From: Candidatus Omnitrophota bacterium
Lineage (GTDB): Bacteria > Omnitrophota > Omnitrophia > Omnitrophales > Aquincolibacteriaceae
Direction: 5' to 3'
NCBI GenBank assembly: GCA_903856085.1
Contig: CAIOAT010000039.1
Location: forward strand, 1 to 50,001
Length of the DNA stretch: 50,001 bases
Part shown: piece after piece, positions 12,348-41,014 of the stretch
Layout: every line of letters begins with the position of its first letter
Numbering within the stretch: position 1 is the first letter of the stretch
Made by a program: the position numbers and the translations under genes
Notes under the pieces: model-generated
What the model was told of the DNA's origin: nothing
Databases searched by the model: none
The model's input: the letters and a program-made list of their open reading frames with translations, nothing else

Positions 12348-12381
12348 ACGACATGACGTTGTCGCCCCTGCCACGTAAAAT
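12348..12381 (+). promoter_or_regulatory. Shared operator-promoter, copy 1 (restriction operon)
   Basis: ACGACA (12348-12353), six bases, TGTCGC (12360-12365), ten bases, then TAAAAT (12376-12381) as a -10 box. The same half-sites, spacer and distance to the -10 box occur at 28887 and 32679. This copy has one mismatch in the left half-site. The -35 position (ATGACG) overlaps the operator core, so a bound factor would contact or replace RNA polymerase there. The WYL regulator at 31677 is the best candidate ligand. Confidence 0.65.
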
Positions 12382-22858: not shown

Positions 22859-25800
22859 ATGATAAAATTTATTAAGTCATTTTTTTCCCCGGATTGCAAA
22901 ATAATCAGGATTGAAAAGAGCCTTAAAAAAGCCCATGCGAATAGATCCCTGTCGGCAATAATCTCAATTTTCAGTAATGGGTTTTTGTATCTATTGCGTG
23001 CACGTCGATATGATCTCCTTTCAAGCTTTGTGTTATCCCACCTAAGTCAAATTCAAGATGCAGCCGCCCTTAAGAATAGCATTCAGGCTAAAGATATAGA
23101 GCAGTCGATCAGCGCGTTAGAATCGACAAAACACGATGCCTCAGCGCTCAGCATATGTGATTATTTTGGATTGCAAGAGGCAGCCATCGAAATTTTGGCG
23201 AAGAAAGGTCGAGCTAATGATTTAGCTATGCGTATAGCTAAAGACCGAAATCCGGATAAGGGGATTTTAGAAATTTCAGTACTGCTCTGGGAAAAACATA
23301 ATGGAGATATCACTAAAAGCCCCACCATGACTGAGACGGTGAGGAATATAGGTAAGTTCTCCTTAGAATGCCTTCCGGATAATCCCCGAGTTAAAGAGAT
23401 CGTTGGACAAAAAAAAGAGGCGGCATTTTTATACGAAAAAGAGAATGATTTTGCCAACGCGGCACGGTGTTACGAAGAGATTGAGATGTACTCGCAGGCG
23501 TGCACGTTATATGCCGGGATTAAAGACAATGAAAGCGTTTCTAGAACCGCGGAAGCTCTCGGTGATTTGGAAAAGGCGCTTCAGTTCGTTGTTAAGCCAG
23601 ACCGAAAAATAAAACTACTTATTCGAATGGAAAGATTTATTGAGGCGAATAAGTATGCGGCCGGCTTGGAATCTCCAGAAGAATATTTTGCTTTGATACG
23701 CGAGAAGGCAAAGGCGCGCATGGGAGTGAAGGTTAAAAGTCATAATTTTATTGAGGCGATAGAGTTGGCGAATGTTGCCGAGTGCGAGACCGCAGAGAAA
23801 GAGGAAATCTTGTTGCGGGGGCGCGCATATTATGATCAGCAATTAGTTTCTGCGGCCTCAGAGGAAGCAATTAGAGAAATCTACAAGGAAAGGGTTCAAC
23901 TGGAGGAAAAGTCCGGAAAATTTGAAGAGGCTGGGAAAATCGCAGAGGAAATATTGAAGGATCTGAAGCTTGCAAGCTTGCTTTATGAAAAAGCCAATTT
24001 GTTTAATCGCGCAATTCACGCAACTTCTGAGTCTGCCGAAAGACAAAAAAATGAACCAAGCTTAAAGCTCAGGTTGGCTGAGCTCCACGAAAAAGGTGGA
24101 AATTTATTGAGCGCCGCCCAACTGTACGAGCAGTGTGCGTTATTTGATAAGGCTTTTATCTTATATGAAAAGCTTCTGAATTATTCAAAAGCGATAGATT
24201 GCTACAAAAAAACAACCAATCTAGATAAACATGTTCTTGCTGGGCTTTATATTAAGGCAGAGGAGTTCGAGAAAGCAGTAGAGATTTATTTACAATCGGA
24301 CACATTCTCAGAGTTAGAGCAGGCTATGGCTATTGCGAGGACATATAACTTAACCACCCATCTGAATGAAATAAGTGAAAAAATTGGGCGCCATTTGTCA
24401 GGCAGTGATGCCGATTTAAAAAGATGCTTTGCTGTATCTCGGGATGAGGTTGTGTCTTCATATTCTTCAGTTATTGGTATAGATTTTGGCACGACGAATT
24501 CTGTTGGAGCGATTTTTAATAAGAAAACAAAAAAAGTCGAAATCATTACAGTCCCCGGATCTGCCGACAGGGATTTCGAGCCGTCTTTTTTCGGGGTGGA
24601 TGAAAATAATCATCCTCTCTTTGGAGAGAAGGCTCGCCTTCGATCTCTGACGGCGCCGGATTGTGTCATGGCTCGTATTAAACGAACTCTTGGTGAAGGA
24701 CGGAGTTTTTCTATTGGTAATAAGAAATATAAGAGCGAAGAAATTGTTGCGAAGATTATTCAGAAGATGAAGTTTAATGCGGAAGCCTATCTGAGAGCTA
24801 AGGTTGAAACAAGGTTTCGCGAGGTTCTGCTTGCAAACAACCTACGCTTTCCAGAAGAAAAAATTGAGAGTTTCGTAAAACAAGAAGACTTCATTCACGT
24901 TAAAGATGTTGTGCTGACGGTTCCCGCTTATTTTAATGATAATCAAAAGAGGGCGACTAGGGATTCGGCGGAAATCGCGGGTTTGAGGGTGCTGAGGTTG
25001 TTGCATGAGCCTACTTCGGCCGCTCTGGCATATGGTTATCACAAATCATATTCTGGTACTTTTGTAGTGGTTGACTTGGGAGGAGGCACTCTGGATATTT
25101 CAATTCTGGAGGTCGGTGAAGGGGTTTATGAAATTCAGAGCATATCAGGAGATGTGAAACTTGGCGGAAGCGATGTCGACACCGCATTGTTGCAATATGT
25201 TATTTCCGATATCGAGAAAACGTTAAATATTACTGTGACTGAGAAGGATCACCCTATTGAAATAAACCGTTTGCGGGACAGTTGTGAAAATATGAAGATT
25301 AACTTGTCCAGTCTCGATACTTACACGATGGAATTAACTCACTTTTTAAATAAGCCCCAATATGCGTTCACCCTAACGAGAAAAGAATTGGAAAGAATAT
25401 CTCGGCCTGTCACCCATCGGATCAAAGACATCGTAGAAAAAGCGATTAAGGCATATGGCGGTTCCATTGATCATTTTATTCTGGTTGGCAATGCAACGAA
25501 AATGCCCGCTGTTGTTGAGGTGGCAAAAAGTGTCATTCGCGCTCGTCATTTGCAAGATCTTAACGCTGGGTCTGTTGTTGCGGCAGGTGCTGCTCTTGAA
25601 GGGGCTATTTTATTAGGGGATTTGAAGGAGCATCTGCTTTTAGATGTAGTCCCTTATAGCTTGGGCATTTCAATTCTGAAAAAGGATTCTAAAATAAGCG
25701 AAGAGGAAATGAGCCGGTTGATTGAAAAGAATACAACGATACCGACGATTAAATCACAAGAATATACCACAACAAAAGATAATCAGACAGGCGTCAATAT

Positions 25801-27361
25801 AAGGATATATCAGGGCGAGGCTTTAGTGCCCGGCAAAAATTATTTTCTGGGTGATTTTCACTTGGAAGGAATATTGCCGGCACCAGCTGGGACTCCAAAA
25901 ATAGAGGTGAAGTTTGAAATAGGCGCAGATTGCATCTTAACTGTTACAGCGATTGACAAGGGGACAACTAAACAGCAGTCAATAAGGATTGAAGGCGCTG
26001 TAACCCTGTCTCCAGGAGAGAAGGCGGGGCTTCGGAAATACTTTACTGAAAGTGAAAATATATATCCGCTAGAAAAGAAGATTGATGAAACTAAGAATGC
26101 TATCGATGGCTTGTTTGAGGCCTTTGACAAGACGGTTCAGGTTGTTGAGCAAGGCGTTAAGGATTTTGTAGAATTATTTCATGAGAAAGTAGAGGTTAAC
26201 GCACGATTTTATAAGGCAACGGCCGAGCAGGCGCGAGTAATACAGGGCATGTTTTCTCAGAAAGACCATTTCTTGTATGCGCTTCAGAAATATAAGGATG
26301 AAGCGACTTCAACGCGGAATAATCTAAAGCAGATTCTGTCGAAGCATTTGGATTATAGCGATAAAGAAATAGTCTCAAAGATGGAAGAGCGTTTCAATAT
26401 TCTTTCAAAGCTTAAAGAATCATTTGTTCATACAGCTCAATCGGTTGAGAAGGATATATTGCATGTTGTAATCGAATGGATCCAAATACTTAAGGCGATG
26501 GATCCTGATATGGACAAAATGAGTCTTGTGAGAGTAGCGAATTACCATTTTGTCGCTGGCCGTTTTGCTAAGGCGAAAGAAATTATTGGATCTATGGCGA
26601 TAGGTCCCGAGGGGTTATCGGAAGAAGCATTTCAGCTTCTTTTGAGATGCATTATTCGTTTGTGTCTACGAGAAGAATATCGTGATACGCATAAGAAGTA
26701 CGGAAATGTGTTCAAGTTGATTTATCCTGATTTTAATAGGCTCGATTCATTTCTGAAAAGTGTTGATGATTCGGTCTATATGATTGAAGCGCAGTCCCCG
26801 CAGGGTTCTTTTGTCGGCAGTGGTTTTAGCGTGGCCTCCAATTTAATTGCCACAAATCGACACGTTGTTGAAGGGGCAACTGCTCAAAATATTAGGGTTA
26901 TTAGCAAGAACAAGATTTTTTCAGTCGCTTGCGTGGAAGTGGATCCGATTAATGATTTGGCGATATTGAAGGTTAACGAGAATCTAACTCCATTCAGGCT
27001 AGGAGAATTTAATTTTGTAGCTCCAGGTGAACAGGTATTGGCGCTGGGATTCCCTTCTCCATCATCAAATGTGCATAGCGAAAACATATATATATCGAGA
27101 GGGATTGTCAATTCCATACGAAATATTAATGTTTCGCCTGAAAGGGTTATTTTTATCGATGCGAAGATCGGCAGGGGAATGAGCGGGGGGCCGCTAATCA
27201 ACGATTTGGGGGAGGTTATTGGGATTATTACGCTCATTAGGTATGAAATCGAGCAGAGTGATAAAGGAGCAGTTGCCATAGGGGATCAACCTGTGGCGTT
27301 GCCGATTCATCTTGTTAGGAACTATTTGCTTAAGCATATGGTAACTGCTGATAAAAAATGA
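22859..27361 (+). CDS. TPR/solenoid-Hsp70-trypsin-like protease fusion protein
   Basis: A 1500-residue protein with GGAGG four bases before the ATG. Residues about 90-530 are an alpha-solenoid of TPR-like helical hairpins (for example AAQLYEQCALFDKAFILYEK). Residues about 538-1070 are an Hsp70/DnaK-type chaperone: IGIDFGTTNS (539-548), VVDLGGGTLDISIL (about 736-749), ILVGNATKMPAV (about 872) and a substrate-binding domain after DVVPYSLGISI (about 928). A helical segment (about 1090-1290) leads to a trypsin/HtrA-like protease with NRHVV (His1335), INDLAIL (Asp1366) and GMSGGPL (Ser1442); the spacing of the triad is almost that of DegP. There is no PDZ domain and no signal peptide, so the protein should be cytoplasmic. 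All active sites appear intact. It resembles a sensor-switch-effector layout of conflict systems; function is inference. Confidence 0.85.
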   Translation: MIKFIKSFFSPDCKIIRIEKSLKKAHANRSLSAIISIFSNGFLYLLRARRYDLLSSFVLSHLSQIQDAAALKNSIQAKDIEQSISALESTKHDASALSICDYFGLQEAAIEILAKKGRANDLAMRIAKDRNPDKGILEISVLLWEKHNGDITKSPTMTETVRNIGKFSLECLPDNPRVKEIVGQKKEAAFLYEKENDFANAARCYEEIEMYSQACTLYAGIKDNESVSRTAEALGDLEKALQFVVKPDRKIKLLIRMERFIEANKYAAGLESPEEYFALIREKAKARMGVKVKSHNFIEAIELANVAECETAEKEEILLRGRAYYDQQLVSAASEEAIREIYKERVQLEEKSGKFEEAGKIAEEILKDLKLASLLYEKANLFNRAIHATSESAERQKNEPSLKLRLAELHEKGGNLLSAAQLYEQCALFDKAFILYEKLLNYSKAIDCYKKTTNLDKHVLAGLYIKAEEFEKAVEIYLQSDTFSELEQAMAIARTYNLTTHLNEISEKIGRHLSGSDADLKRCFAVSRDEVVSSYSSVIGIDFGTTNSVGAIFNKKTKKVEIITVPGSADRDFEPSFFGVDENNHPLFGEKARLRSLTAPDCVMARIKRTLGEGRSFSIGNKKYKSEEIVAKIIQKMKFNAEAYLRAKVETRFREVLLANNLRFPEEKIESFVKQEDFIHVKDVVLTVPAYFNDNQKRATRDSAEIAGLRVLRLLHEPTSAALAYGYHKSYSGTFVVVDLGGGTLDISILEVGEGVYEIQSISGDVKLGGSDVDTALLQYVISDIEKTLNITVTEKDHPIEINRLRDSCENMKINLSSLDTYTMELTHFLNKPQYAFTLTRKELERISRPVTHRIKDIVEKAIKAYGGSIDHFILVGNATKMPAVVEVAKSVIRARHLQDLNAGSVVAAGAALEGAILLGDLKEHLLLDVVPYSLGISILKKDSKISEEEMSRLIEKNTTIPTIKSQEYTTTKDNQTGVNIRIYQGEALVPGKNYFLGDFHLEGILPAPAGTPKIEVKFEIGADCILTVTAIDKGTTKQQSIRIEGAVTLSPGEKAGLRKYFTESENIYPLEKKIDETKNAIDGLFEAFDKTVQVVEQGVKDFVELFHEKVEVNARFYKATAEQARVIQGMFSQKDHFLYALQKYKDEATSTRNNLKQILSKHLDYSDKEIVSKMEERFNILSKLKESFVHTAQSVEKDILHVVIEWIQILKAMDPDMDKMSLVRVANYHFVAGRFAKAKEIIGSMAIGPEGLSEEAFQLLLRCIIRLCLREEYRDTHKKYGNVFKLIYPDFNRLDSFLKSVDDSVYMIEAQSPQGSFVGSGFSVASNLIATNRHVVEGATAQNIRVISKNKIFSVACVEVDPINDLAILKVNENLTPFRLGEFNFVAPGEQVLALGFPSPSSNVHSENIYISRGIVNSIRNINVSPERVIFIDAKIGRGMSGGPLINDLGEVIGIITLIRYEIEQSDKGAVAIGDQPVALPIHLVRNYLLKHMVTADKK

Positions 27362-27580: not shown

Positions 27581-28207
27581 GTGATTTTCAGGCTAAGACT
27601 AGCAACGTTTTTGAAAGAACTTGAGCGGATGGATTCGCTCGCTAATGGTAAAAAACGCAAGGATGTTTATCGGTTAATCTCCTTATCCACGTTAGGCCCG
27701 GACTGTTTAGTCCTTTGGTGTGGTGATGTCCAGCAGTTTATCCGGGCAGAAGTCCTCGATAGCGGAGGCTGGGTTGCAGACATAGAGCTTATCATCGGAA
27801 TTATAAAGACCTTCAAAGGTGCTGATATCTCTGTTTGGGTCCAAGATTCCAATGTAACTATTAAAGTGGGCGATCGGAAGCTGCAGATAGATACAGCTTC
27901 TTCTGTGGCGAATATTGACGCTTTCCTGGAGGAACAAGGTCTAAATGCCAAAAAGCTAAAGAAAGCTCAGGCTAAGTTGTTCGCTGAGCTAATGAGCCAG
28001 CTTCGGTTTGCACAAGAAGTGTCCTATGTTGACGATGCGGGGGTGATGCAAACCGGCAGCATATTCCTCGGGTTTGTCGGCGGTGGTGATGGTGTTATGG
28101 CGCAAGTCGCTAGTTTTGATCGTAAGGTTAAATTGATTGACCCCAAGCGGATCGGCAAGGTTTTGAACCGCCCCATGGAAAACCCGTTGTTACGGCAAAT
28201 GTTATGA
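27581..28207 (+). CDS. Hypothetical protein, possible single sliding-clamp-like domain
   Basis: The start is uncertain: GTG at 27581 has an AAAGG site six bases away; a TTG at 27551 and an ATG at 27629 are also in frame. The protein (208 residues from 27581) has a central segment with the strand order of a DnaN/beta-clamp domain: LVLWCGDVQQFIRAEV, then GWVADIELIIGIIKTF, then ISVWVQDSNVTIKVGDRKLQID. A second, smaller beta domain with two glycine-rich turns follows (about 150-200). True clamps have three such domains, so this would be a one-domain relative. The call is by visual pattern only. The stop overlaps the next start (ATGATTAG region), which ties it to the small gene downstream. A 10-bp palindrome CGCTATAGCG lies upstream at 27450. 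Confidence 0.45.
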   Translation: MIFRLRLATFLKELERMDSLANGKKRKDVYRLISLSTLGPDCLVLWCGDVQQFIRAEVLDSGGWVADIELIIGIIKTFKGADISVWVQDSNVTIKVGDRKLQIDTASSVANIDAFLEEQGLNAKKLKKAQAKLFAELMSQLRFAQEVSYVDDAGVMQTGSIFLGFVGGGDGVMAQVASFDRKVKLIDPKRIGKVLNRPMENPLLRQML

Positions 28208-28461
28208 TTAGCCAGGAAGACGCCATGAAGATTGCCGAGAAACATCGCGGTCCTGGCTATGAGTTCTATGGCATAACTCACGGTGTTCCCGCGAATTTCA
28301 GCCTCTACGGAAACTTCCCGCGCAATCCCGATGATGTCTGGTGCGTGTCTTGCTCCAATCATGCTGGGAAGCATCATATCGTGGCATCTTCCTGGGCGCT
28401 AGTTATCTCAAAAGAAACAGGAGAGGTTTTGTATGACGGATCAGCCAATGACGAAGGATAA
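28204..28461 (+). CDS. Small Imm35/PepSY-like protein
   Basis: An 85-residue protein overlapping the previous gene by four bases. It starts MISQEDAMKIAEKHRG, a helix typical of PepSY-like and Imm35-type immunity proteins, and ends ALVISKETGEVLYDGSANDEG-like (strand, TG turn, strand), the other half of that fold. It has no signal peptide. Such small proteins occur as immunity or inhibitor proteins in polymorphic toxin loci. Whether it protects against a neighbour product, for example the protease fusion, is speculation. The gene is real by overlap and composition, the family is tentative. Confidence 0.45.
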   Translation: MISQEDAMKIAEKHRGPGYEFYGITHGVPANFSLYGNFPRNPDDVWCVSCSNHAGKHHIVASSWALVISKETGEVLYDGSANDEG

Positions 28462-28886: not shown

Positions 28887-28920
28887 GCGACAATGCGTTG
28901 TCGCGATGATTCGTTACAAT
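28887..28920 (+). promoter_or_regulatory. Shared operator-promoter, copy 2 (DUF2779 nuclease operon)
   Basis: GCGACA (28887-28892), six bases, TGTCGC (28899-28904), ten bases, then TACAAT (28915-28920). The half-sites are a perfect inverted repeat. No recognisable -35 hexamer lies at the expected distance, because that position falls into the operator core. Transcription would start near 28927, so the nuclease must start downstream, at the GTG at 28968. Confidence 0.75.
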
Positions 28921-28967
28921 ATCCCAGGATTGGTATAGAATTCACTGGTATGCGAAGGGAGTTAATC

Positions 28968-30446
28968 GTGACGAATAATCCGGTTTTTTCGAAGTCTCGG
29001 TATCTTGAAGGGCTTCAGTGTCCGAAGCTGCTATGGATGCGTTGTAACGCGAAAGAGGAGTTCCCGCAGACTGATGATTCGACGCAAGCCATTTTCGATC
29101 AGGGGAACCAGGTGACTGCGCTCGCCCGGACGCTTTTCCAAGGCGGGATCGAGATTGAAGGCATCACGGATTATGATTCGATTATTCGGCGCACGCAGGA
29201 TCTTTTGCCGGAGCGTGTGCCCCTTTTCGAGCCCGCCTTTCGCGTGAAGAACCTTTTCGCCCGTCCCGATATCCTTTCCCCGAACAAAGACGGCTCATGG
29301 GACATCTTCGAGGTTAAGAGCTCGACTAAGGTGAAAGACGTAAATCTCAACGACGTTGCGTTCCAAGCCTGCTGTTACGAAAAAGCCGGGCTTAGGATTC
29401 GCCGGGCTCATCTTGTTTTGATCAATACTGACTATGTTCGCTCGGGCAAGGTCAATGCTAAGGGACTTTTTAAGATAAAGGATGTCACGAAGCTCGTGAG
29501 ACCGCTTTGTAAGCAGGTCGAATCCAATGTAGAGCGAATGATCAAGATTCGCGATCAAAGGGTTCGCCCCGAAGTGAAAATCGGGCCTCAATGCAGCAAT
29601 CCATACGATTGTCCGCTGCAGGAGCTCTGTTGGAAGCATATTCCTGAGGACAGCGTTTTTATGTACAACAGGATTAATGCTGACAAAGCTTTCGGTTTCA
29701 TAAACGAAGGATTCCTCAAGGCAACGGATGTTCCGGCTGAGCGATTGACCGCCGCGACGCACCAGATCGTGAGGGCGTGCCATGCTAAGAAAATGACGAA
29801 CGTGGACCTCAAGGTTATCAAGGGATTCATCCAGGGCCTGAAATTCCCCCTTTATCTCGTTGATTTTGAAACTTTAAATCCGGCGATCCCGCTTTATGAA
29901 AATTCAAGTCCGTACCAACAGATTCCATTCCAGTTCTCGCTCCACATTTGGGAGGGCTGGTCGAAAAAGCCGACACATCATGCATTTCTTTCTGAGGGGC
30001 GAGATGACCCAAGGCCCGGACTTTTGAAGAAGCTTCAGTCTTTGATTGGGCCTAAGGGGAGTATAGTCGCCTTCAATATGAGTTTTGAAATAGGCTGCCT
30101 TAAGGATTCTGTCGAGGTTTTTCCGGAATACAAGAACTGGTTCCAGGAGATAGAAGGGCGATTCATCGACCTAATGGTGCCATTTCGTCGGTTTGATTAT
30201 TACGATCCCAAGCAGATGGGGAGCTACTCGATCAAAGCCGTTTATCCAGCTCTTGTGGGTAGATCTTATGACAACATGACGATTTCGGATGGCGGACAGG
30301 CCAGCCGAGAATACGGACGTGTGACCTTTACGGATGGCATTTCTGAAAAGGAAAAGCAAAAGATTTATGATGGGCTTCTCGAATACTGTAAGCTTGATAC
30401 CCAAGCCATGGTTGATATTTCAAAAGTCTTGAAGTCGAAAACATGA
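28968..30446 (+). CDS. DUF2779 protein: Cas4/RecB-like nuclease plus DEDD exonuclease-like domain
   Basis: The GTG at 28968 has AAGGGAG at the right distance, and earlier in-frame starts would lie in or near the operator. The 492-residue protein has a Cas4/RecB-type nuclease domain: Asp101 (ARPDIL), Glu115 and Lys117 (FEVKSS), Gln133 (FQACCYE), and four cysteines at 18, 209, 215 and 221 that could hold an iron-sulfur cluster as in Cas4. The second half (about 285-492) has RNase H-fold exonuclease-like motifs: LVDFETL, VAFNMSFE and LEYCKLDTQAM. Both active sites appear intact. There is no CRISPR array or other cas gene, so this is not an adaptation protein by context. It probably forms an operon with the next gene (43-base gap) under the shared operator. 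Confidence 0.78.
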   Translation: MTNNPVFSKSRYLEGLQCPKLLWMRCNAKEEFPQTDDSTQAIFDQGNQVTALARTLFQGGIEIEGITDYDSIIRRTQDLLPERVPLFEPAFRVKNLFARPDILSPNKDGSWDIFEVKSSTKVKDVNLNDVAFQACCYEKAGLRIRRAHLVLINTDYVRSGKVNAKGLFKIKDVTKLVRPLCKQVESNVERMIKIRDQRVRPEVKIGPQCSNPYDCPLQELCWKHIPEDSVFMYNRINADKAFGFINEGFLKATDVPAERLTAATHQIVRACHAKKMTNVDLKVIKGFIQGLKFPLYLVDFETLNPAIPLYENSSPYQQIPFQFSLHIWEGWSKKPTHHAFLSEGRDDPRPGLLKKLQSLIGPKGSIVAFNMSFEIGCLKDSVEVFPEYKNWFQEIEGRFIDLMVPFRRFDYYDPKQMGSYSIKAVYPALVGRSYDNMTISDGGQASREYGRVTFTDGISEKEKQKIYDGLLEYCKLDTQAMVDISKVLKSKT

Positions 30447-31676: not shown

Positions 31677-32621
31677 ATGAAAAATAAAAATTACGATAAA
31701 AAGATATTCCGGCTGGTGTCAATCCTTAATAAGCTTAATGGGGGCGGGAAGGTCCGCTCAAGCGAGCTTGCGGAGGAGTTTAATGTCTCGATTCGAAGTG
31801 TCCAACGAGACTTAGATCTTTTGAATATGACCGGATTCCCGCTCGATGTACCGGAAAAGGGCGTCTATTCATTCATGCCGGGGTTTTCCCTCAGGAAACT
31901 CATGCTTACCGATGAAGAAGCGTCGCTTCTAAGCTTTTTTCATGAAATTGCAAATTCGCTCGGGAGAAATTTCTCCGAATCCTTCCGTAGCCTTGTAAGT
32001 AAGGTTCTTGCGAAGGAAGATTCCTCACCGTTCTATGTGAAATTGCCTGGGATCCCGGCGAACATGAAAAATTTTCCGTTTGTAAAGGAACTGGAGCAGG
32101 CAGTCCAGGATTCGCAGAAGGTTCTGATCAAATACGAATCCGCGAAAGGCATCGCAGAGCACCGACTTTGTCCGCTCAAACTGGTTAACTTCGAAGGGTT
32201 CTGGTACTTGCTGGCTATGCCGGACGGAAAGCGTCAATACCGAAAGTTTCGGTCCGAGAAGATCAAAGCTCTTGAGGTTTTGGATGAGACCTTCGATCCG
32301 CCGCGGAACCTAAAGACGGCGCTCGATCGAAGCGTAAATATCTGGTTTAGCGAACAACCGGGGGAGAAGATCCTGCTTGAGATTGATAAAGATGCAGCCC
32401 ATTACTTCAAGAAGAAGATTTATTTCCCGGAGCAAAGGATCGTGAAAGAAAAGAAGGATGGCTCCCTCATCCTTCAGACGCAGGCGAACTTCAACGAAGT
32501 CATTCGCACCATCATTCAATGGATTCCTGATGTCCGGGTCATCAAGCCCAAAGAGCTCGACCTCAAGGTCCGGCAACTCCTTAGCGCCTACCTCAAAGGC
32601 TCCCGCCCTAGGTGGGGCTGA
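31677..32621 (+). CDS. WYL-domain transcriptional regulator
   Basis: A 314-residue protein with an N-terminal winged helix-turn-helix of the DeoR/HTH_11 type (residues about 8-65, with RSSELAEEFNVSIRSVQRDL), a WYL domain (about 135-230, with HRLCPLKLVNFEGFWYLLA and QYRKFRSEKIKALEVLDETF) and a C-terminal WCX-like extension (about 245-314). WYL regulators control many phage-defence loci and sense nucleic-acid or nucleotide ligands. The gene lies between two of the three shared operator sites, making it the most likely protein to bind GCGACA-N6-TGTCGC. Its own upstream region lacks that motif, so it is not obviously autoregulated. A strong terminator covers its 3' end and isolates it from the AAA operon. 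Confidence 0.9.
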   Translation: MKNKNYDKKIFRLVSILNKLNGGGKVRSSELAEEFNVSIRSVQRDLDLLNMTGFPLDVPEKGVYSFMPGFSLRKLMLTDEEASLLSFFHEIANSLGRNFSESFRSLVSKVLAKEDSSPFYVKLPGIPANMKNFPFVKELEQAVQDSQKVLIKYESAKGIAEHRLCPLKLVNFEGFWYLLAMPDGKRQYRKFRSEKIKALEVLDETFDPPRNLKTALDRSVNIWFSEQPGEKILLEIDKDAAHYFKKKIYFPEQRIVKEKKDGSLILQTQANFNEVIRTIIQWIPDVRVIKPKELDLKVRQLLSAYLKGSRPRWG

Positions 32622-32629
32622 GCCTTTTT
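32596..32629 (+). terminator. Intrinsic terminator of the WYL gene
   Basis: AAGGCTC (32596-32602) pairs with GAGCCTT (32620-32626), with further GC-rich pairing inside, followed by a T-run (32625-32629). The stop codon of the regulator lies inside the hairpin, so coding sequence doubles as terminator. Confidence 0.75.
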
Positions 32630-32678: not shown

Positions 32679-32712
32679 GCGACATAATGCTGTCGCATAC
32701 ATAGGCTATCCT
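32679..32712 (+). promoter_or_regulatory. Shared operator-promoter, copy 3 (AAA ATPase operon)
   Basis: GCGACA (32679-32684), six bases, TGTCGC (32691-32696), ten bases, then TATCCT (32707-32712). Half-sites are a perfect inverted repeat and the distance to the -10 box equals that of copies 1 and 2. The six core bases differ between copies (TGACGT, ATGCGT, TAATGC), which points to contacts with the half-sites. Confidence 0.75.
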
Positions 32713-32747: not shown

Positions 32748-34697
32748 ATGGCAAGCAACTATTTCAAAAATGAGTACGAATATCTGGACGCTCAATTTAA
32801 GTTGGTGGATATCTACAGGAAGTGGGAGCAAGAGAGAAATCCCGATAAGAAAATAGTTGTAAAAATCGGGAAAAATAAACCCCGTCCTCGGAACTATGCA
32901 AAAGAAATTAAAGAGAAGTCCGCAAGGGTCGAAGCAAGGTGGATCGGTTCTCAAAAGAAAGGGAAGAGTTTTCTTTTTGACAGAATTGCCGATACCGCTT
33001 GCTTGGATAGCAATGAACGTCTCTTTCTTATATTGCTGCTACACAGCCGTCTCACCATGCCGAACGGACAGGTTCCGTGCGCAGAAGCCACGAAGACGAT
33101 TTTTCCAAAAAGGCAGCAATGCTTGAAGAATCTTTATTGTCTCTCCCAGGAAGGGCGGCTTAAGAAGAGCGGATTGATCGAGTTCGAAGGTAAGGACGTG
33201 AAGATTTCTGATCGGATATATAAAAAATTCTTGCAGATCAAAATAAGGCGAAATATTTCTGGTTCCGTCTCGAAAGAAAATCAGACGCAAACATATGCGG
33301 ATTTTCTAACCAGTACATATCGACTTGCTGACTTAATGTGGGAAAGAACGCAGGCGACAGCTGCTGTTCAAGCTTGCCATGAGAGCAAAATCATACAAAA
33401 CGATTTAGCTGAACTGAATGAGCGCATTATCACGATGAGGCAGACAATTGAAAGCGCGATGGCGTCTGAATTCGCAAAAGACTTTCCCCTTGTGCTGTTT
33501 GCTAAGAAGTACGGACTTTCCTTTGAGGAACAGATGGTTCTGATCGGGATGATGCAAACCATGCTTCGACTAAGACAGGAAAATCCTGGAAATTGTTGCT
33601 GGGATGAGGGCTATCTGCAAGTCATGGATGTGAGCCGGTTTCTTGCTTTTTCGCGAGACGATGTCCCGAGGTTTTTTAAAATCTTTCACGAGGATTCCGT
33701 GCTGATCCAAGAAGGCATTATCGAAGAACATAGATGGGCCAGGGATTCGCTTCAGGTAAAGGAATTCACTTTGGCAACGGATGCGCTGAATTTTCTGACC
33801 AACCATGGTAACGGAACTCCGGAGGAGCGACTGAGGGATCTTGGCGTGAAACTCAGGGAAAAGGCCGAGAAAACTGGAAATATCACTGAACCTAGGTTTA
33901 CTCTCGAAGATGTAGTGCTTGAGGAACGAAACAAAGCTTGTCTTGTGAGTAGCCTCGGACAATTAATCAACAAGGACCTCATTTTTAAGGAGTGGGGCTT
34001 TGAAGAAAAGATTAAATATGGGACCGGCATAACGATGCTCTTTGCGGGGCCTCCCGGGACGGGAAAGACGATGGCTGCTGAAGCTGTGGCTGGGCATATC
34101 AAGAAGAAGGTTCTGATCGTTGATTACTCCAAGCTCGAAAGCTGCTGGGTCGGCGAAACGGAAAAAAACATCGTAAAAGTATTCAGGACCGCTAAGGAAA
34201 AAGACGCAGTGCTTGTGTTTGATGAAGCGGATGCTGTTTTTTATAGTCGCTCTCTTGCTTCAAGGACTTGGGAAGTTCGAGACGTTAACGTGCTCTTACG
34301 TGAAATCGAAAGGTTCACCGGCGTAGTGATTCTTACAACCAACCGTCATGACAGTTTTGATCCTGCCTTGGAACGAAGAATAGCGGTTCGTCTTGAATTC
34401 GGTGCGCCGGGGCTTAAGGAGCGAGTCCTTCTGTGGAAAAGGCATTTCCCTGGGAAAGCGCCCTTGGCTCAGGATGTCGATTTTGAATGCCTAGCCAATG
34501 AATTTGTTATTACAGGCGGGCAGATCAAAAACATTGCGCTTGGTGCCGCTCGCCGTGCTGCATTTAGAACTTCACGAGGTGAGATTGCCTTGATTACGAG
34601 GCAAGACATTCTGGATGCAGTTAATGATGAAAAGGCGCTTAGTTGGGCAGGGCATGGTATTAAGGGACAGCTTGGTTTTGCTCCATTAAATAATTAA
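32748..34697 (+). CDS. AAA+ ATPase (CDC48/FtsH-type AAA module)
   Basis: A 649-residue protein with AGGGGG before the ATG. The N-terminal 330 residues are mostly helical, rich in Lys and Arg, with short winged-helix-like parts (YLQVMDVSRFLAFSRDDV); I recognise no named domain. The C-terminal AAA module has Walker A GPPGTGKT (434-441), Walker B VFDEADAVF (Asp492, Glu493), sensor-1 VVILTTNRHDSFDPALERR with the arginine fingers, and a helical lid ending near residue 620. Such ATPases unfold or remodel proteins or complexes. It is the first gene behind operator copy 3, followed 15 bases later by a secreted repeat protein, an unusual partner. No protease domain is fused. Confidence 0.85.
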   Translation: MASNYFKNEYEYLDAQFKLVDIYRKWEQERNPDKKIVVKIGKNKPRPRNYAKEIKEKSARVEARWIGSQKKGKSFLFDRIADTACLDSNERLFLILLLHSRLTMPNGQVPCAEATKTIFPKRQQCLKNLYCLSQEGRLKKSGLIEFEGKDVKISDRIYKKFLQIKIRRNISGSVSKENQTQTYADFLTSTYRLADLMWERTQATAAVQACHESKIIQNDLAELNERIITMRQTIESAMASEFAKDFPLVLFAKKYGLSFEEQMVLIGMMQTMLRLRQENPGNCCWDEGYLQVMDVSRFLAFSRDDVPRFFKIFHEDSVLIQEGIIEEHRWARDSLQVKEFTLATDALNFLTNHGNGTPEERLRDLGVKLREKAEKTGNITEPRFTLEDVVLEERNKACLVSSLGQLINKDLIFKEWGFEEKIKYGTGITMLFAGPPGTGKTMAAEAVAGHIKKKVLIVDYSKLESCWVGETEKNIVKVFRTAKEKDAVLVFDEADAVFYSRSLASRTWEVRDVNVLLREIERFTGVVILTTNRHDSFDPALERRIAVRLEFGAPGLKERVLLWKRHFPGKAPLAQDVDFECLANEFVITGGQIKNIALGAARRAAFRTSRGEIALITRQDILDAVNDEKALSWAGHGIKGQLGFAPLNN

Positions 34698-34712
34698 TAA
34701 GGTGAGGTTTCA

Positions 34713-35036
34713 ATGAAAACAATATTGTTTCTGCTTTTGGTTCTAACTGCTTGCACGCTTGCTTTCGCGGATAGCGACTACACTCTGGCGCCCAACGGTC
34801 AGTATGTGAGCGATGGTAGTCCCACGCTTGCCCCTGATGGAACTTATGTTGGATATGGTAAGGCTACTTTGGCTCCCAACGGCACCTATGTGGGAGGCGA
34901 TCGGGCGACGCTTGCTCCGAACGGGACTTACGTGGGGGGTGATCGGGCCACATTGGCTCCGGATGGGACCTATGTTGGCGGGGACCGAGCGGTCCTTACG
35001 CCTGACGGCACGTATGTCGGCGTTTACGACGACTAA
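34713..35036 (+). CDS. Small secreted protein of six 14-residue repeats
   Basis: A 107-residue protein with GGTGAGG before the ATG. Residues 1-19 form a signal peptide ending LAFA. The mature protein consists almost only of six tandem 14-residue repeats of the form ATLAPNGTYVGGDR (residues 23-106), each with an NG or DG turn and a TYVGG strand, so it should form a small repetitive beta structure outside the cytoplasm. Short proteins with this repeat occur as hypothetical secreted proteins; I know no function. It is co-transcribed with an AAA ATPase and a cytoplasmic unknown protein, 15 and 12 bases away. Recent repeat expansion is likely because central repeats are nearly identical. Confidence 0.7.
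   Translation: MKTILFLLLVLTACTLAFADSDYTLAPNGQYVSDGSPTLAPDGTYVGYGKATLAPNGTYVGGDRATLAPNGTYVGGDRATLAPDGTYVGGDRAVLTPDGTYVGVYDD
34779..35030 (+). repeat. Coding tandem repeat, six units of 42 bp
   Basis: Six in-frame units of 42 bp, with units three to five nearly identical at protein level but with scattered synonymous differences. Copy number changes would lengthen or shorten the protein by 14 residues without frameshift. Confidence 0.8.
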
Positions 35037-35048
35037 GGAGATTCGAAA

Positions 35049-35444
35049 ATGAAAGTTGTGGGCAAATATAAAGACCGCGATGTCAGGATTATAAGCATGT
35101 ATATCAATGAAACGTATGGGGGCTATTTGATTCTGAGCGACAATGTATTGGAAAGAGAGAATCGAAGTATTCTTTCGGAGCGTGTGAAGAAAACGATCGA
35201 ACGGCTATGGGGAGATAATCGCACCGTTTATGTTATGGATCTTGACCAAATAGATTACAAGAAGCGCCTTCCCAGGGTCATGGTTTATGCGTGGCTTTTG
35301 GGCACTCCAATTAAAGAAGACCAAGACGGATCACATCTTTTTTTGGTCTGGCTTCAAGATTCCGACGCAGATCCGTTTATTAAGGCGGGAGAATATTTTC
35401 AAAAACTCGAATGGGAAAAAATGGCAAAAGGTTATTATTGCTAA
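35049..35444 (+). CDS. Hypothetical protein of the AAA operon
   Basis: A 131-residue protein with a strong ribosome binding site (AAGGAG) eight bases from the ATG. No signal peptide or membrane helix. It looks like a small alpha/beta protein: strands RDVRIISMYI and GGYLILSD, a helix around ILSERVKKTIERLW, a strand TVYVMDLD, a second helix-strand unit and an acidic loop (KEDQDGSHLFLVWLQDSDADPF). I recognise no family. Position suggests that it works with the AAA ATPase, perhaps as an adaptor. Confidence 0.55.
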   Translation: MKVVGKYKDRDVRIISMYINETYGGYLILSDNVLERENRSILSERVKKTIERLWGDNRTVYVMDLDQIDYKKRLPRVMVYAWLLGTPIKEDQDGSHLFLVWLQDSDADPFIKAGEYFQKLEWEKMAKGYYC

Positions 35445-35632: not shown

Positions 35633-37654
35633 ATGCAGCCCGCCCCAAATCCCGCACAGTCTCACTCTGTCCAAAACAACTATCTCAGGAGGCTCGTATA
35701 CGCTCTTTTGTTTTTAAGCGTTTTCAGAGTTGCCCCGCCGCTTTTGGCTGATGTCCAGCAGCTTGCTCCTGCTATACCCCAAGCCAACCAGGTCTCCGCT
35801 CCAGAGGTTATTCCGGTAACGGCTAAACCGAAAACGAAGGTGAGTTTTGAGGAAAAACACAAAGACTGGGCCACGGTTATGCTTCTTCATGAGAGCCGCA
35901 TTACTCTTCATGAGGATTGGTCTTACGAAACTTATATTCACAGAAAGGTCCTCATTCAGACTAAAGACGGGAGCGCTATGGGTGAGATCCCGATCCTTTA
36001 CGATGCGGATACGGAGGAGGTCAAAATCCTGAGGGCTGTTACGATTACTCCGGACGGCAAGGAGCACCCGCCGGCAAAAGTTCAGGAGCTTTCCGTTTAT
36101 GAGGACTATGGCATGTACTCCAATGAAAAACAAAAGATTCTTTCCATGCCGGAAGTCACTGTGGGGTCGATTATCGATCTGGAGTATCTGAAAATAACCA
36201 AAAAGCGCCCCATGCCGAAAACTTTTTGGGACATTGAAAGCACCAGCATGCCATTCCCAGTCAGGGAACAAAAGCTGACTTACCGGTTTCCAAAGAGTCT
36301 TGAAATAAAACAAAAGACGTTCCTTCATTCCTGGCAGCCGGAGATCCGCCAAGAAGGTGAAACCACGGTTTATTATTGGGAGAGAAAGAAGTACTCTCCG
36401 AATACGGACGAAGAAGAGGTGTTTCCACCACTTCCTACGGCCGAGAACATTAATCAAGGCATCGAGCTTTCATCGGTCAAGAACTGGCAGGAAGTAGCGG
36501 TCTGGTATTACGGGCTCATCCAAAAGAACCTGAAGATTACTCCTAAGATCCGGAAGGCCGCAGAGAAAGCGGCCAAAGGGAAAACGAATCCCCGCGACAA
36601 AGCCCGGGCCGTACTTGAATACATGCAGGAGAACTTCCGGTATGTTTCGATGTCTTTTGGCGATTATTCCATGGAGCCGCATCCGACCGATGAGGTGTTC
36701 CGGAATAAGTACGGTGATTGCAAGGACCAGTCGCTTCTCGTGAAAGCCATGCTAGAAGCCGTGGGAGTCCGGGCGGAGCTATGCCTTTTCGCCTTGGAAT
36801 CGGAGGGGAACGATCCTAAGGATGATCTTCCGGTACTAGGTCTTTATGATCATGTACTGCTCAAGGTTATTGACCCCAAAGGCGGGGATTTCTACGCAGA
36901 CCCGCTTCTTCAGGGGTATGACATCGGGGAATACCCTTTGCAGTATCAGGGAGCGCATACCTTTATCATCGGACCCAAAGGCGGTGAGTTCGATCACTTT
37001 CCCGTTTTTGATGAGGCAAGGATGTCAGAATCCACTGTCGGAACCATAGAGATTCGTCCCGATGGCTCCTCTACCAACACGTTCCTGAATTCTTGGAAGC
37101 TTCACGAGTCCATAGATCTTCGCAGGAAACTCAAAGCGATGCCCGCGGAAGAAAAGAAAAAGTTTTTTGAAAAATTGGAAGCTGATATGGCGGGGGATGG
37201 CAAGGTGCTAGAACAAAAAATCGAAGGGCTTGACGCGAAATACGGACGGCTCAAGTCCCGATCGGTTTGTGATTACCCTAACAACTATCCAATAAACGAC
37301 GGACTCATGGTCCTCGATCTGGCACAAACGGACAGTTCCGATGGATGGAATGCCAAGGAAAGGAAGAAGCCTATTTTTTCTCCTATCAATGGATCGAATC
37401 AAGAAACCATCACTTTCAAATTACCAGCTGGTTTCGAGGTCATGCATCTTCCGAAAGGTTTTATTCTCGATAACGGTTTTTTCAGCTTTCGCCGGGATAT
37501 CGAAAGAACAGGCAACAGTATCAAGATCACGGACCTGCGACGGATACGTCGAATGGCGCTTCCGGCTTCTGACTATCCCAAGATCAAAGAGTTCTATGCC
37601 AAGCTTCCATTTCGCACCGAACAACGGATCATTTTGAGGAAAAAAGAGGCATAG
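35633..37654 (+). CDS. DUF3857 and transglutaminase-like protein
   Basis: A 673-residue protein with GGAGG before the ATG and a signal peptide (hydrophobic residues about 22-40). Residues about 70-220 match the DUF3857 beta domain (HEDWSYETYIHRKVLIQTKDG, VKILRAVTITPDGK). A transglutaminase-like protease fold follows with a complete triad: GDCKD (Cys363), YDHVLL (His407) and YADPLLQ (Asp423). The last part (about 440-673) is the DUF3858-like beta domain. Proteins of this layout are exported and common in Bacteroidetes and PVC bacteria; the substrate is unknown. GC-rich codon use matches the envelope operon, not the island. Confidence 0.85.
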   Translation: MQPAPNPAQSHSVQNNYLRRLVYALLFLSVFRVAPPLLADVQQLAPAIPQANQVSAPEVIPVTAKPKTKVSFEEKHKDWATVMLLHESRITLHEDWSYETYIHRKVLIQTKDGSAMGEIPILYDADTEEVKILRAVTITPDGKEHPPAKVQELSVYEDYGMYSNEKQKILSMPEVTVGSIIDLEYLKITKKRPMPKTFWDIESTSMPFPVREQKLTYRFPKSLEIKQKTFLHSWQPEIRQEGETTVYYWERKKYSPNTDEEEVFPPLPTAENINQGIELSSVKNWQEVAVWYYGLIQKNLKITPKIRKAAEKAAKGKTNPRDKARAVLEYMQENFRYVSMSFGDYSMEPHPTDEVFRNKYGDCKDQSLLVKAMLEAVGVRAELCLFALESEGNDPKDDLPVLGLYDHVLLKVIDPKGGDFYADPLLQGYDIGEYPLQYQGAHTFIIGPKGGEFDHFPVFDEARMSESTVGTIEIRPDGSSTNTFLNSWKLHESIDLRRKLKAMPAEEKKKFFEKLEADMAGDGKVLEQKIEGLDAKYGRLKSRSVCDYPNNYPINDGLMVLDLAQTDSSDGWNAKERKKPIFSPINGSNQETITFKLPAGFEVMHLPKGFILDNGFFSFRRDIERTGNSIKITDLRRIRRMALPASDYPKIKEFYAKLPFRTEQRIILRKKEA

Positions 37655-39028: not shown

Positions 39029-39055
39029 CTTAGGCCCTAAGTTATACTGTTGCCC
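39029..39055 (+). promoter_or_regulatory. Promoter with palindrome, probably giving a leaderless mRNA
   Basis: A 13-base near-perfect palindrome CTTAGG-C-CCTAAG (39029-39041) lies directly before TATACT (39043-39048). The ATG of the next gene is only seven bases after the -10 box, so transcription would begin at or next to the start codon. A TTCAAT 18 bases upstream of the -10 box may act as -35. No ribosome binding site is present, consistent with leaderless translation. Confidence 0.6.
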
Positions 39056-41014
39056 ATGATAAAAGCCACTAGTCAGCTTAATTTATCTGTAGCAAACCCC
39101 AAGCTAGCCCAAGAGTGGCATCCATCCAAAAACGGTAAGCTTACACCTAAAGATGTGACCCCCGGGTCTGGCAAAAAAGCCTGGTGGAAGTGTCCAAAGG
39201 CGGATGACCATGTGTGGGAAGCCGTAATTTTATCCAGAGCAAGAAATAATGCTGGATGTCCATATTGTTCGGGAAGATATGCTGACAAAAATAATAATTT
39301 TGAAAAATCAAATCCGGAAATATTAAAAGAGTGGCATCCTACAAAGAATGGGGGCTTAAAACCTAGTAGTTATACGCCTAGATCTGGTTTAGTAGTCTGG
39401 TGGAAATGTCCGAAAGGTGATGACCATGAATGGCAATCTACTATTGCTAATCGTGCTAGTGGAAATGGTTGTCCTGTTTGTTCTGGCAGAAAAGCTGTTA
39501 AATCAAACTGTCTTGCAACGTTAAATCCAGAATTAGCAAAGGAATGGCACCCTACAAAGAATAAAGATCTCACGCCACATGCTGTAGTTCTTGGATCGAA
39601 CAAAAAAGTTTGGTGGAAATGTCCGAAAGGTAATGACCACGAATGGGAAACAACCGTTGTTGATAGGAATGAGGGCGGCCGTTGCCCTGTATGTGCTAAT
39701 AGAAAAATTGTTAATTCAAATTGTTTAGCAACATTAAGGCCAAATTTAGCTAAAGAATGGCATCCTACAAAAAACGAAAAGAGAACTCCTTACAATACTC
39801 ATCCTGGGTCTAGTTTTAAAGTTTGGTGGAAGTGCAAGCACGGGCATGAATGGAGGGTTGCTGTTGAAAAAAGAACAGCTCGGAATACAGGGTGCCCTAA
39901 GTGTTGCAAAAAGACAACTCTGCCAGAATTGAGAATTTTTTCTGAATTAAAAACGATATTTCCATCAATTCAACATAGAACGATGATAAAGGGTTATGAA
40001 GTTGATATTTATATCCCAGAATTAAAAGTTGGGATTGAATATGACGGTGTTTTTTGGCATAAAAATTCGACTGAAAAAGACAAAAAAAAGAACAAAGCGC
40101 TAGAAACAGAGATATTGCTTTTCAGAGCTAGGGAAAAGGGATTATCAAAAATAAGCAGTAGGGATATTGAACTAAATGCGATAAATATTTCTGTAGAATC
40201 AATCAAAAAAATCCTGCGATCAATTCTAGAATATACAAACATTAAATCTAAAGAAGCATTAAGTAAGATCGAACAGTATTTAGAACTTAAAGGCTGGGCT
40301 GCATCGGAGTATTTTACAAAACTATGCACCGAAAGAAACCATATCGATTATGAAAAAGCGATTAGTTATCTATTCCCCAAACTAGCAAAAGAATGGCACC
40401 CAACCAAAAATGATCCCTTACTTCCAGAATACTTTTCACCAGGATCGAACAAAAAAGTCTGGTGGAAGTGTCCCAAGGCAGAGGATCATGTGTGGGAAGC
40501 TGCTATTAACTCTCGAGTAAGAGGTTGCGGCTGCTCAATTTGTGCTGGACAGAAAGCTGTTCACTTAAACTGTCTTGCAACATTATATCCGGATTTATCG
40601 AAGCAATGGCATCCTACAAAGAATAAAGAGCTCACGCCATATGATGTTAGACCAGGGTCTCACAATAAATTCTGGTGGAAATGTCCGAAAGGTGATGACC
40701 ATGAATGGCAATCTGAGCTTAGACATAGAGTAAATGGAATTGGTTGCCCTTTTTGTTCAAATAAAAGAATTTCAAAGGATAATTGTTTAGCTGCAACACA
40801 CCCTGAGCTGGCCAAGGAATGGCACCCTACTAAAAATAAAGACATCAACCCACGGAATGTTACTTATGGATTAGTGCAAAAAGTCTGGTGGAAATGCCCG
40901 AAAGGAAAAGATCATGAGTGGCAAGCTTTTATTGCTAACAGAACTAGAAGAGGAGATGGCTGCCCGTTTTGCGCTAGGAGGAAAAGCAGTTCGAAACAAT
41001 TAGCGCTGCTCTAA
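39056..41014 (+). CDS. Zinc-ribbon repeat protein (DUF4379) with embedded Vsr/MutH-type nuclease
   Basis: A 652-residue protein. Seven zinc-ribbon repeats of about 60 residues share the pattern LAKEWHPTKN, a PGS turn, VWWKCP, a DHEW motif and CPxC, giving Cys-His-Cys-Cys metal ligands. Four are N-terminal and three C-terminal. Between them (about residues 285-440) lies a domain with LPELRIFSELK, YEVDIYIPELKVGIEYDGVFWH, the Glu, Asp and Glu plus His pattern of Vsr-like PD-(D/E)XK endonucleases. The ribbons probably bind nucleic acid and position the nuclease. Such DUF4379 proteins occur in phages, giant viruses and mobile regions. Base composition is very A+T-rich compared with the sirtuin gene before it. 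Confidence 0.82.
   Translation: MIKATSQLNLSVANPKLAQEWHPSKNGKLTPKDVTPGSGKKAWWKCPKADDHVWEAVILSRARNNAGCPYCSGRYADKNNNFEKSNPEILKEWHPTKNGGLKPSSYTPRSGLVVWWKCPKGDDHEWQSTIANRASGNGCPVCSGRKAVKSNCLATLNPELAKEWHPTKNKDLTPHAVVLGSNKKVWWKCPKGNDHEWETTVVDRNEGGRCPVCANRKIVNSNCLATLRPNLAKEWHPTKNEKRTPYNTHPGSSFKVWWKCKHGHEWRVAVEKRTARNTGCPKCCKKTTLPELRIFSELKTIFPSIQHRTMIKGYEVDIYIPELKVGIEYDGVFWHKNSTEKDKKKNKALETEILLFRAREKGLSKISSRDIELNAINISVESIKKILRSILEYTNIKSKEALSKIEQYLELKGWAASEYFTKLCTERNHIDYEKAISYLFPKLAKEWHPTKNDPLLPEYFSPGSNKKVWWKCPKAEDHVWEAAINSRVRGCGCSICAGQKAVHLNCLATLYPDLSKQWHPTKNKELTPYDVRPGSHNKFWWKCPKGDDHEWQSELRHRVNGIGCPFCSNKRISKDNCLAATHPELAKEWHPTKNKDINPRNVTYGLVQKVWWKCPKGKDHEWQAFIANRTRRGDGCPFCARRKSSSKQLALL

Follow-up and report, generated by a model that had tools for sequence, protein, structure and literature searches.

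A palindrome-fronted AAA ATPase and six-unit repeat operon in Omnitrophota as a possible output of a WYL-activated accessory regulon

The window analyzed here is the whole 50,001-nucleotide stretch of contig CAIOAT010000039.1 from a Candidatus Omnitrophota bacterium (genome G000). It carries three open reading frames in line, all on the + strand and separated by gaps of 15 and 12 bp: a CDC48/IetA-type AAA ATPase with an N-terminal winged-helix part (649 aa, 32748..34697); a protein of 107 aa made up of a signal peptide and six units TLAPDGTYVGGDRA (34713..35036, defined by translation, TRF and family alignment); and a small cytoplasmic protein of 131 aa (gene 3, 35049..35444), for which no Pfam match, family or solved structure was found. 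Upstream, on the same strand, lies the gene of an HTH-WYL-WCX regulator of 314 aa (31677..32621), whose HTH_11, WYL and WCX domains all exceed the Pfam cut-offs and which we propose to be an activator. An intrinsic terminator (32598..32629, + strand) overlaps the 3' end of this gene; its hairpin, GGCUCCCGCCC-UAGGU-GGGGCUGAGCC-UUUUU, has a folding energy of -19.2 kcal/mol (z -2.4), ends in U5 and parts the cassette from the WYL gene. The predicted WYL site, an exact palindrome GCGACA-N6-TGTCGC (GCGACATAATGCTGTCGC, 32679..32696, + strand), comes next, and exactly 10 bp past it is a putative -10 element, TATCCT (32707..32712, + strand), recognized from the spacing at other sites and accompanied by no -35 box. 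The gene order, spacing and strand, and the isolating terminator, agree with the preliminary description of this locus. The cassette adjoins a DUF3857/transglutaminase gene (35633-37654), which among 11 relatives was found only in G000, G005 and G009; as a marker of empty sites it is unusable, because it occurs only in the three genomes that have a repeat block at that site.

The ATPase contains a complete AAA module, with Walker A GPPGTGKT at residue 434, Walker B VLVFDE at 488 and the arginine motif ERRI at 542. Both Walker motifs and the match to the Pfam AAA profile PF00004 (3.4e-29; 102.4 bits against a cut-off of 21.2) place it in the AAA (CDC48-like) family, and the N-terminal winged-helix family PF22977 is also above its Pfam cut-off (2.6e-7). 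An orthologue with 80% identity is present at the same locus in the sister species G005, and a dN/dS of 0.06 relative to its relatives indicates purifying selection. Strong matches to the N-terminal part were found in 2 of 384 Omnitrophota genomes (G000 and G005), and a search for viral relatives of the ATPase found none.

The best PADLOC match of the ATPase is the AAA domain of IetA from the IetAS system (102.6 bits). The likeness is confined to the AAA part, as the N-terminal parts differ, and the score of 96.2 bits against NCBIfam NF042959 is far under the cut-off of 510. In Pfam scans of the neighbors of the ATPase (the WYL gene, the repeat protein, gene 3 and the DUF3857/transglutaminase protein), no subtilase that could represent the subtilisin-like protease partner IetS was detected. 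Because it falls short of the curated IetA cut-off and lacks a subtilase partner, the ATPase was not filed as IetAS. A further likeness is to the ATPase of the pADAP contractile injection system, with which about 310 residues of the AAA part align at 32% identity, whereas the N-terminal part fails to align; no sheath, tube, tail or baseplate genes were recognized among the window ORFs that were read.

The second gene of the cassette encodes six 14-residue units (TRF period 42). Those pairs of units that are identical at 8-9 of 9 positions in the protein differ at 6-10 of 27 bases; thus the repeat is kept by selection on the protein and does not result from recent slippage. Its dN/dS relative to the sister copies is 0.06-0.09. 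A lipobox-like LTAC in the signal peptide is peculiar to the window copy, and since close relatives carry P at that place, cleavage by signal peptidase I after AFA appears more likely than lipoprotein processing. Pfam matches to lung surfactant, stannin and pb9 were rejected as chance matches to a single unit. AlphaFold gave no usable fold for the protein, alone (43.7) or with 28 relatives (mean pLDDT 55.7, pTM 0.26).

The repeat protein qualifies for what is here named the six-unit APDG[TS]YVGG family, with about six units of 13-16 residues containing P-x-G-x-[YF]-V. The P, G and V positions are invariant in an alignment of 32 members, and exactly six units are present at 34 of 50 repeat loci. 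Searches of Pfam, NCBIfam, PHROG and PDB gave no match that covers the protein, and among the papers searched none had the repeat motif, or Orf69 together with phage 186. On sequence comparison, this is an undescribed and coherent family, scattered widely over many phyla. A survey with one genome per species in GTDB gave 43 loci, in Omnitrophota, Pseudomonadota, Campylobacterota, Planctomycetes, Melainabacteria, Verrucomicrobia, Spirochaetes and others; in a separate set of 384 Omnitrophota genomes, 10 have the repeat protein. Members are also found on a Caballeronia plasmid, on small non-mobilizable Klebsiella ColRNAI plasmids (WP_202963179) and in phage 186, in which the gene of Orf69 comes directly after int in a cI-int operon annotated as lysogenic in the record. 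A search of 5,426 E. coli genomes for Orf69, at two sensitivities, found no match with either. Orf69 and WP_202963179 are of the same six-unit family as the window protein; however, both stand alone, with neither the ATPase nor a WYL gene. At least six family members, Orf69 among them, have no signal peptide or hydrophobic start. The claim of a secreted protein, which the signal peptide suggests for the window protein, therefore does not extend to the family as a whole.

Some further features of the family were observed. Signal-less repeat proteins beginning MSVRLAPDG... or MSVRLTPNG... lie in phage tail-gene regions (L055 9989-10240, L074 4870-5121, L075 4868-5119), in contrast to phage 186, where Orf69 comes after int. 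A match in an Aeromonas phage was set aside, being antisense to an annotated tail gene. Units of the form CPDGxYVxGxxC in some repeat proteins (L037, L038, L050, L053, L054, L057) suggest disulfides in a sub-group. Outside Omnitrophota the neighbors are mixed, including a few defence genes (CARF nuclease, Zorya, HEC-05, methylases), integrases and housekeeping genes, and no recurring partner was seen in the neighborhoods read. Some Campylobacterota repeat genes have AAA genes in their vicinity, but these are ClpA/ClpB-like and not of the window type.

The palindrome in front of the cassette is one of a set. Allowing up to 2 mismatches, 7 copies occur in the window against 1.55 expected, and none of 100 shuffles reached 7. 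The exact form has only 2 copies in the 2.36 Mb genome, both within this island; the second (28887..28904, + strand) has TACAAT at +10 and lies upstream of a DUF2779 gene. A third palindrome, with 1 mismatch (12348..12365, + strand), has TAAAAT at +10 and lies upstream of a PLD/SNF2 helicase and type III restriction-modification cluster. Among the exact sites of G000, G005 and G009, TANNNT is located exactly 10 bp on the gene side at 8 of 9, and at 9 bp at the ninth, and a -35 box was seen at none; the chance of such spacing is about 8e-12, taking 2/64 per site. In a scan covering 20 genomes, the pattern CGACA-N6-TGTCG-N11-TANNNT was counted 3 times in G000 (all in the window); the counts for G005, G064 and G009 were 6, 5 and 5, and the reversed control pattern gave 0 in all four. 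The mycobacterial RecA-NDp motif TTGTCRGTG-N8-TANNNT has a TGTC-to-TANNNT distance equal to that at the window sites.

WYL orthologues were found in 23 of 384 Omnitrophota genomes, and the gene is under purifying selection (dN/dS 0.03). In three distant families (G258, G264, G278) a site lies at most 1.5 kb from the WYL orthologue, just upstream of the gene in two of them. Since G020 has two sites and no detected WYL orthologue, a regulator other than the WYL protein could also read the site.

A link of the cassette to a WYL regulon rich in defence genes, claimed at the outset, is supported by the raw tally of site-fronted genes, as far as sequence can tell. Besides the helicase and type III cluster of the window, palindromes front an Hma helicase in G005 (C79, 1740 bits), a type I methylase in G009 (C19) and a type II methylase in G020 (C52). 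The DUF2779 protein (28893..30446, + strand), with RNase H-like and Cas4-like parts in Pfam, is a recurrent member, with orthologues that likewise follow such a site in G005 (C33 and C38) and G064; the real start of its gene is probably downstream of the palindrome. AAA ATPases stand behind sites in the window, in G005 (C7 and C33) and in G064. The repeat gene is first after the site in G009, follows the site and a TPR gene in G005 C33, and follows the site and the ATPase in G000 and G005 C7. Further sites are followed by an integrase or by genes of no recognized kind. The WYL and repeat genes are found together in 4 genomes against 0.6 expected (Fisher p 0.0016, a value inflated by relatedness), and 6 of the 10 repeat-bearing Omnitrophota genomes have the repeat protein without such a WYL gene.

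Several other genes were noted around these sites. The segment 10365-22721 of the window, behind the 12348 site, is a large defence cluster of a HerA-type ATPase, the PLD/SNF2 helicase (PADLOC C3a139), and a type III methylase and restriction subunit. It is followed by a 1500 aa protein (22859-27361) in which a repeat-like N-terminus is joined to Hsp70-like and trypsin-like protease parts, and for which PADLOC gave a match to the protease part of RT-Protease_XI. A PQ-loop membrane protein (L030 9582-9842, L032 8882-9217, L126 6305-6592), divergent from the repeat or ATPase operon and with its own palindrome, is a recurrent regulon member in G009, G005 and G064. MORN-repeat/DUF6745 proteins recur near the repeat gene in WYL islands (L030 8721-9581 and 4596-5348; L032 7979-8881). 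Among small proteins starting MISQE.A.KIAEKH, that at window 28204-28461 resembles one at the site-bearing G020 locus (L133 3429-3689). Two large proteins that clearly resemble each other, both with zinc-ribbon-like EWHPTKN...WWKC units in repeated form (window 39050-41014, L041 6632-8593), are encoded close to the repeat/WYL loci of two genomes from different families, G000 and G253; from reading these loci, they may form a co-moving block.

The role of the repeat protein can be read in more than one way. It may be selfish or lysogenic-conversion cargo of mobile elements that travels along in defence islands and acts, for example, in superinfection exclusion or in modifying the envelope. The plasmid-borne members, the place of orf69 behind cI and int in the lysogenic operon of phage 186, the integrases and recombinases beside repeat genes, and the sparse distribution in many phyla are consistent with this reading, which we regard as a tentative but serious possibility; purifying selection, the position of the repeat gene directly behind WYL-type promoters in Omnitrophota, and the phage form without a signal peptide argue against it. 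It is somewhat doubtful that the protein belongs to the ordinary envelope, has no connection with defence and stands in the operon by chance. The mixed neighborhoods outside Omnitrophota would agree with such a role, but its recurrent placement in the WYL regulon of G000, G005 (twice) and G009, and the co-occurrence with WYL genes above chance, with the p value confounded by relatedness, would not.

The WYL protein itself could be a repressor of the BrxR/CapW type that occupies the palindrome and silences the operon until infection. WYL proteins of the BrxR type repress defence operons (PMC9122601), and CapW proteins do likewise (PMC9122588). As in these systems, a WYL protein lies inside a defence island and a palindrome within the promoter, a position that is by itself compatible with repression; unlike them, the window-type sites front several unlinked systems. 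Other WYL factors act positively. DriD of Caulobacter is activated by ssDNA, and its site, ATACGAC-N7-GTCGTAT, overlaps the -35 region at a fixed distance to the -10 (PMC12340889); mycobacterial PafBC provides ssDNA-activated sigma adaptation (PMC11804915). These regulons are alike in having WYL factors, promoters without a good -35 and a site at fixed -10 distance, and the window regulator agrees with them in its HTH, WYL and WCX domains and in a site that replaces the -35 at fixed spacing to the -10. The CGAC/GTCG half-sites are common to DriD and the window palindrome, although the spacer is 7 in DriD and 8 in the window sites (CGAC-N8-GTCG). Several window-type targets are defence genes rather than repair genes, and here activation is inferred only. 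Because the palindrome stands at a fixed distance from a -10 without a -35, in the geometry of DriD and PafBC, it is by analogy more likely an activator site replacing the -35 box than a repressor operator. A repressor site needs no fixed distance, and this invariant spacing, together with the DriD-like domain layout and half-sites, makes repression fairly unlikely. Thus, of the "operator copy 3" in the preliminary description, the palindrome is real and above chance, but its spacing to the -10 looks activator-like, not that of a repressor-type operator.

The three genes of the cassette had also been taken as one system, which their distribution did not support: in 384 Omnitrophota genomes, the N-terminal part of the ATPase has strong matches in 2, while the repeat protein occurs in 10 and gene 3 in 3. 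The ATPase and the repeat protein are mostly apart, the outcome that the preliminary description itself named as refuting a joint system: the ATPase is absent from 49 of the 50 other repeat loci examined, and among the 43 loci surveyed with one genome per species it is present only at the G005 locus, G005 being the one sister species, besides the window, to have both. Some loci lie on short contigs, so single absences are weak, but the overall pattern is not. In G005 the retained order is WYL, a gene of 193 aa, palindrome, ATPase and repeat; gene 3, whose relatives at 40-42% identity occur only in G373, is not conserved in the operon and is replaced there by other small genes. Repeat genes without this ATPase include a second copy at a separate place in G005 and the copy of G009. 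Conversely, G064, which has no repeat protein, carries the WYL gene and, behind a site, an IetA-like ATPase (40% identity to the window ATPase over 295 residues), and because of this site-fronted ATPase the two proteins are read, from their distribution, as separable members of one regulon. A single dedicated defence system, in which the ATPase works within the cell while the secreted repeat protein protects the surface or captures phage, with gene 3 as a third part, would suit the tight gene order behind a single promoter, the shared regulon and the ATPase-repeat order kept under strong purifying selection in G000 and G005, but is very unlikely given the absence of the ATPase at the repeat loci other than that of the sister species (some cut by contig ends) and the replacement of gene 3.

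The explanation we prefer, with about even confidence, is that the operon represents one output of a WYL-activated, mostly anti-phage accessory regulon with exchangeable cargo, in which activation is an inferred step. A nucleic-acid signal such as ssDNA, arising from infection or DNA damage, may bind the WYL domain. The DriD/PafBC-like HTH-WYL-WCX protein would occupy GCGACA-N6-TGTCGC in place of the missing -35 and bring RNA polymerase to the TANNNT 10 bp downstream, an architecture that is observed at the sites. The genes of the ATPase and the repeat protein would then be switched on jointly with other defence genes. From its family, the ATPase may act on a cytoplasmic target by remodeling or unfolding it; the repeat protein, judging from its signal peptide, would be exported and act at the envelope as independent, exchangeable cargo rather than as an obligate partner of the ATPase. 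By these comparisons, the constant feature in this clade is the switch and not the cassette.

A broader version of this proposal holds that a WYL activator of the DriD/PafBC kind is the master switch of a genome-wide anti-phage regulon throughout a phylum, one output of which is a new exported six-unit family, found in phage 186 and on small plasmids as well, that stops infection at the envelope; at present this appears quite unlikely. Two results stand out, namely the activator-type promoter signature and an undescribed six-unit family that also occurs in phage 186. The signature CGACA-N6-TGTCG-N11-TANNNT is short and searchable, and predicts WYL-activated genes, including ones of unknown function. 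The repeat proteins form an unnamed exported family common to many phyla, small plasmids and a classic phage, and its role may be tested in E. coli.
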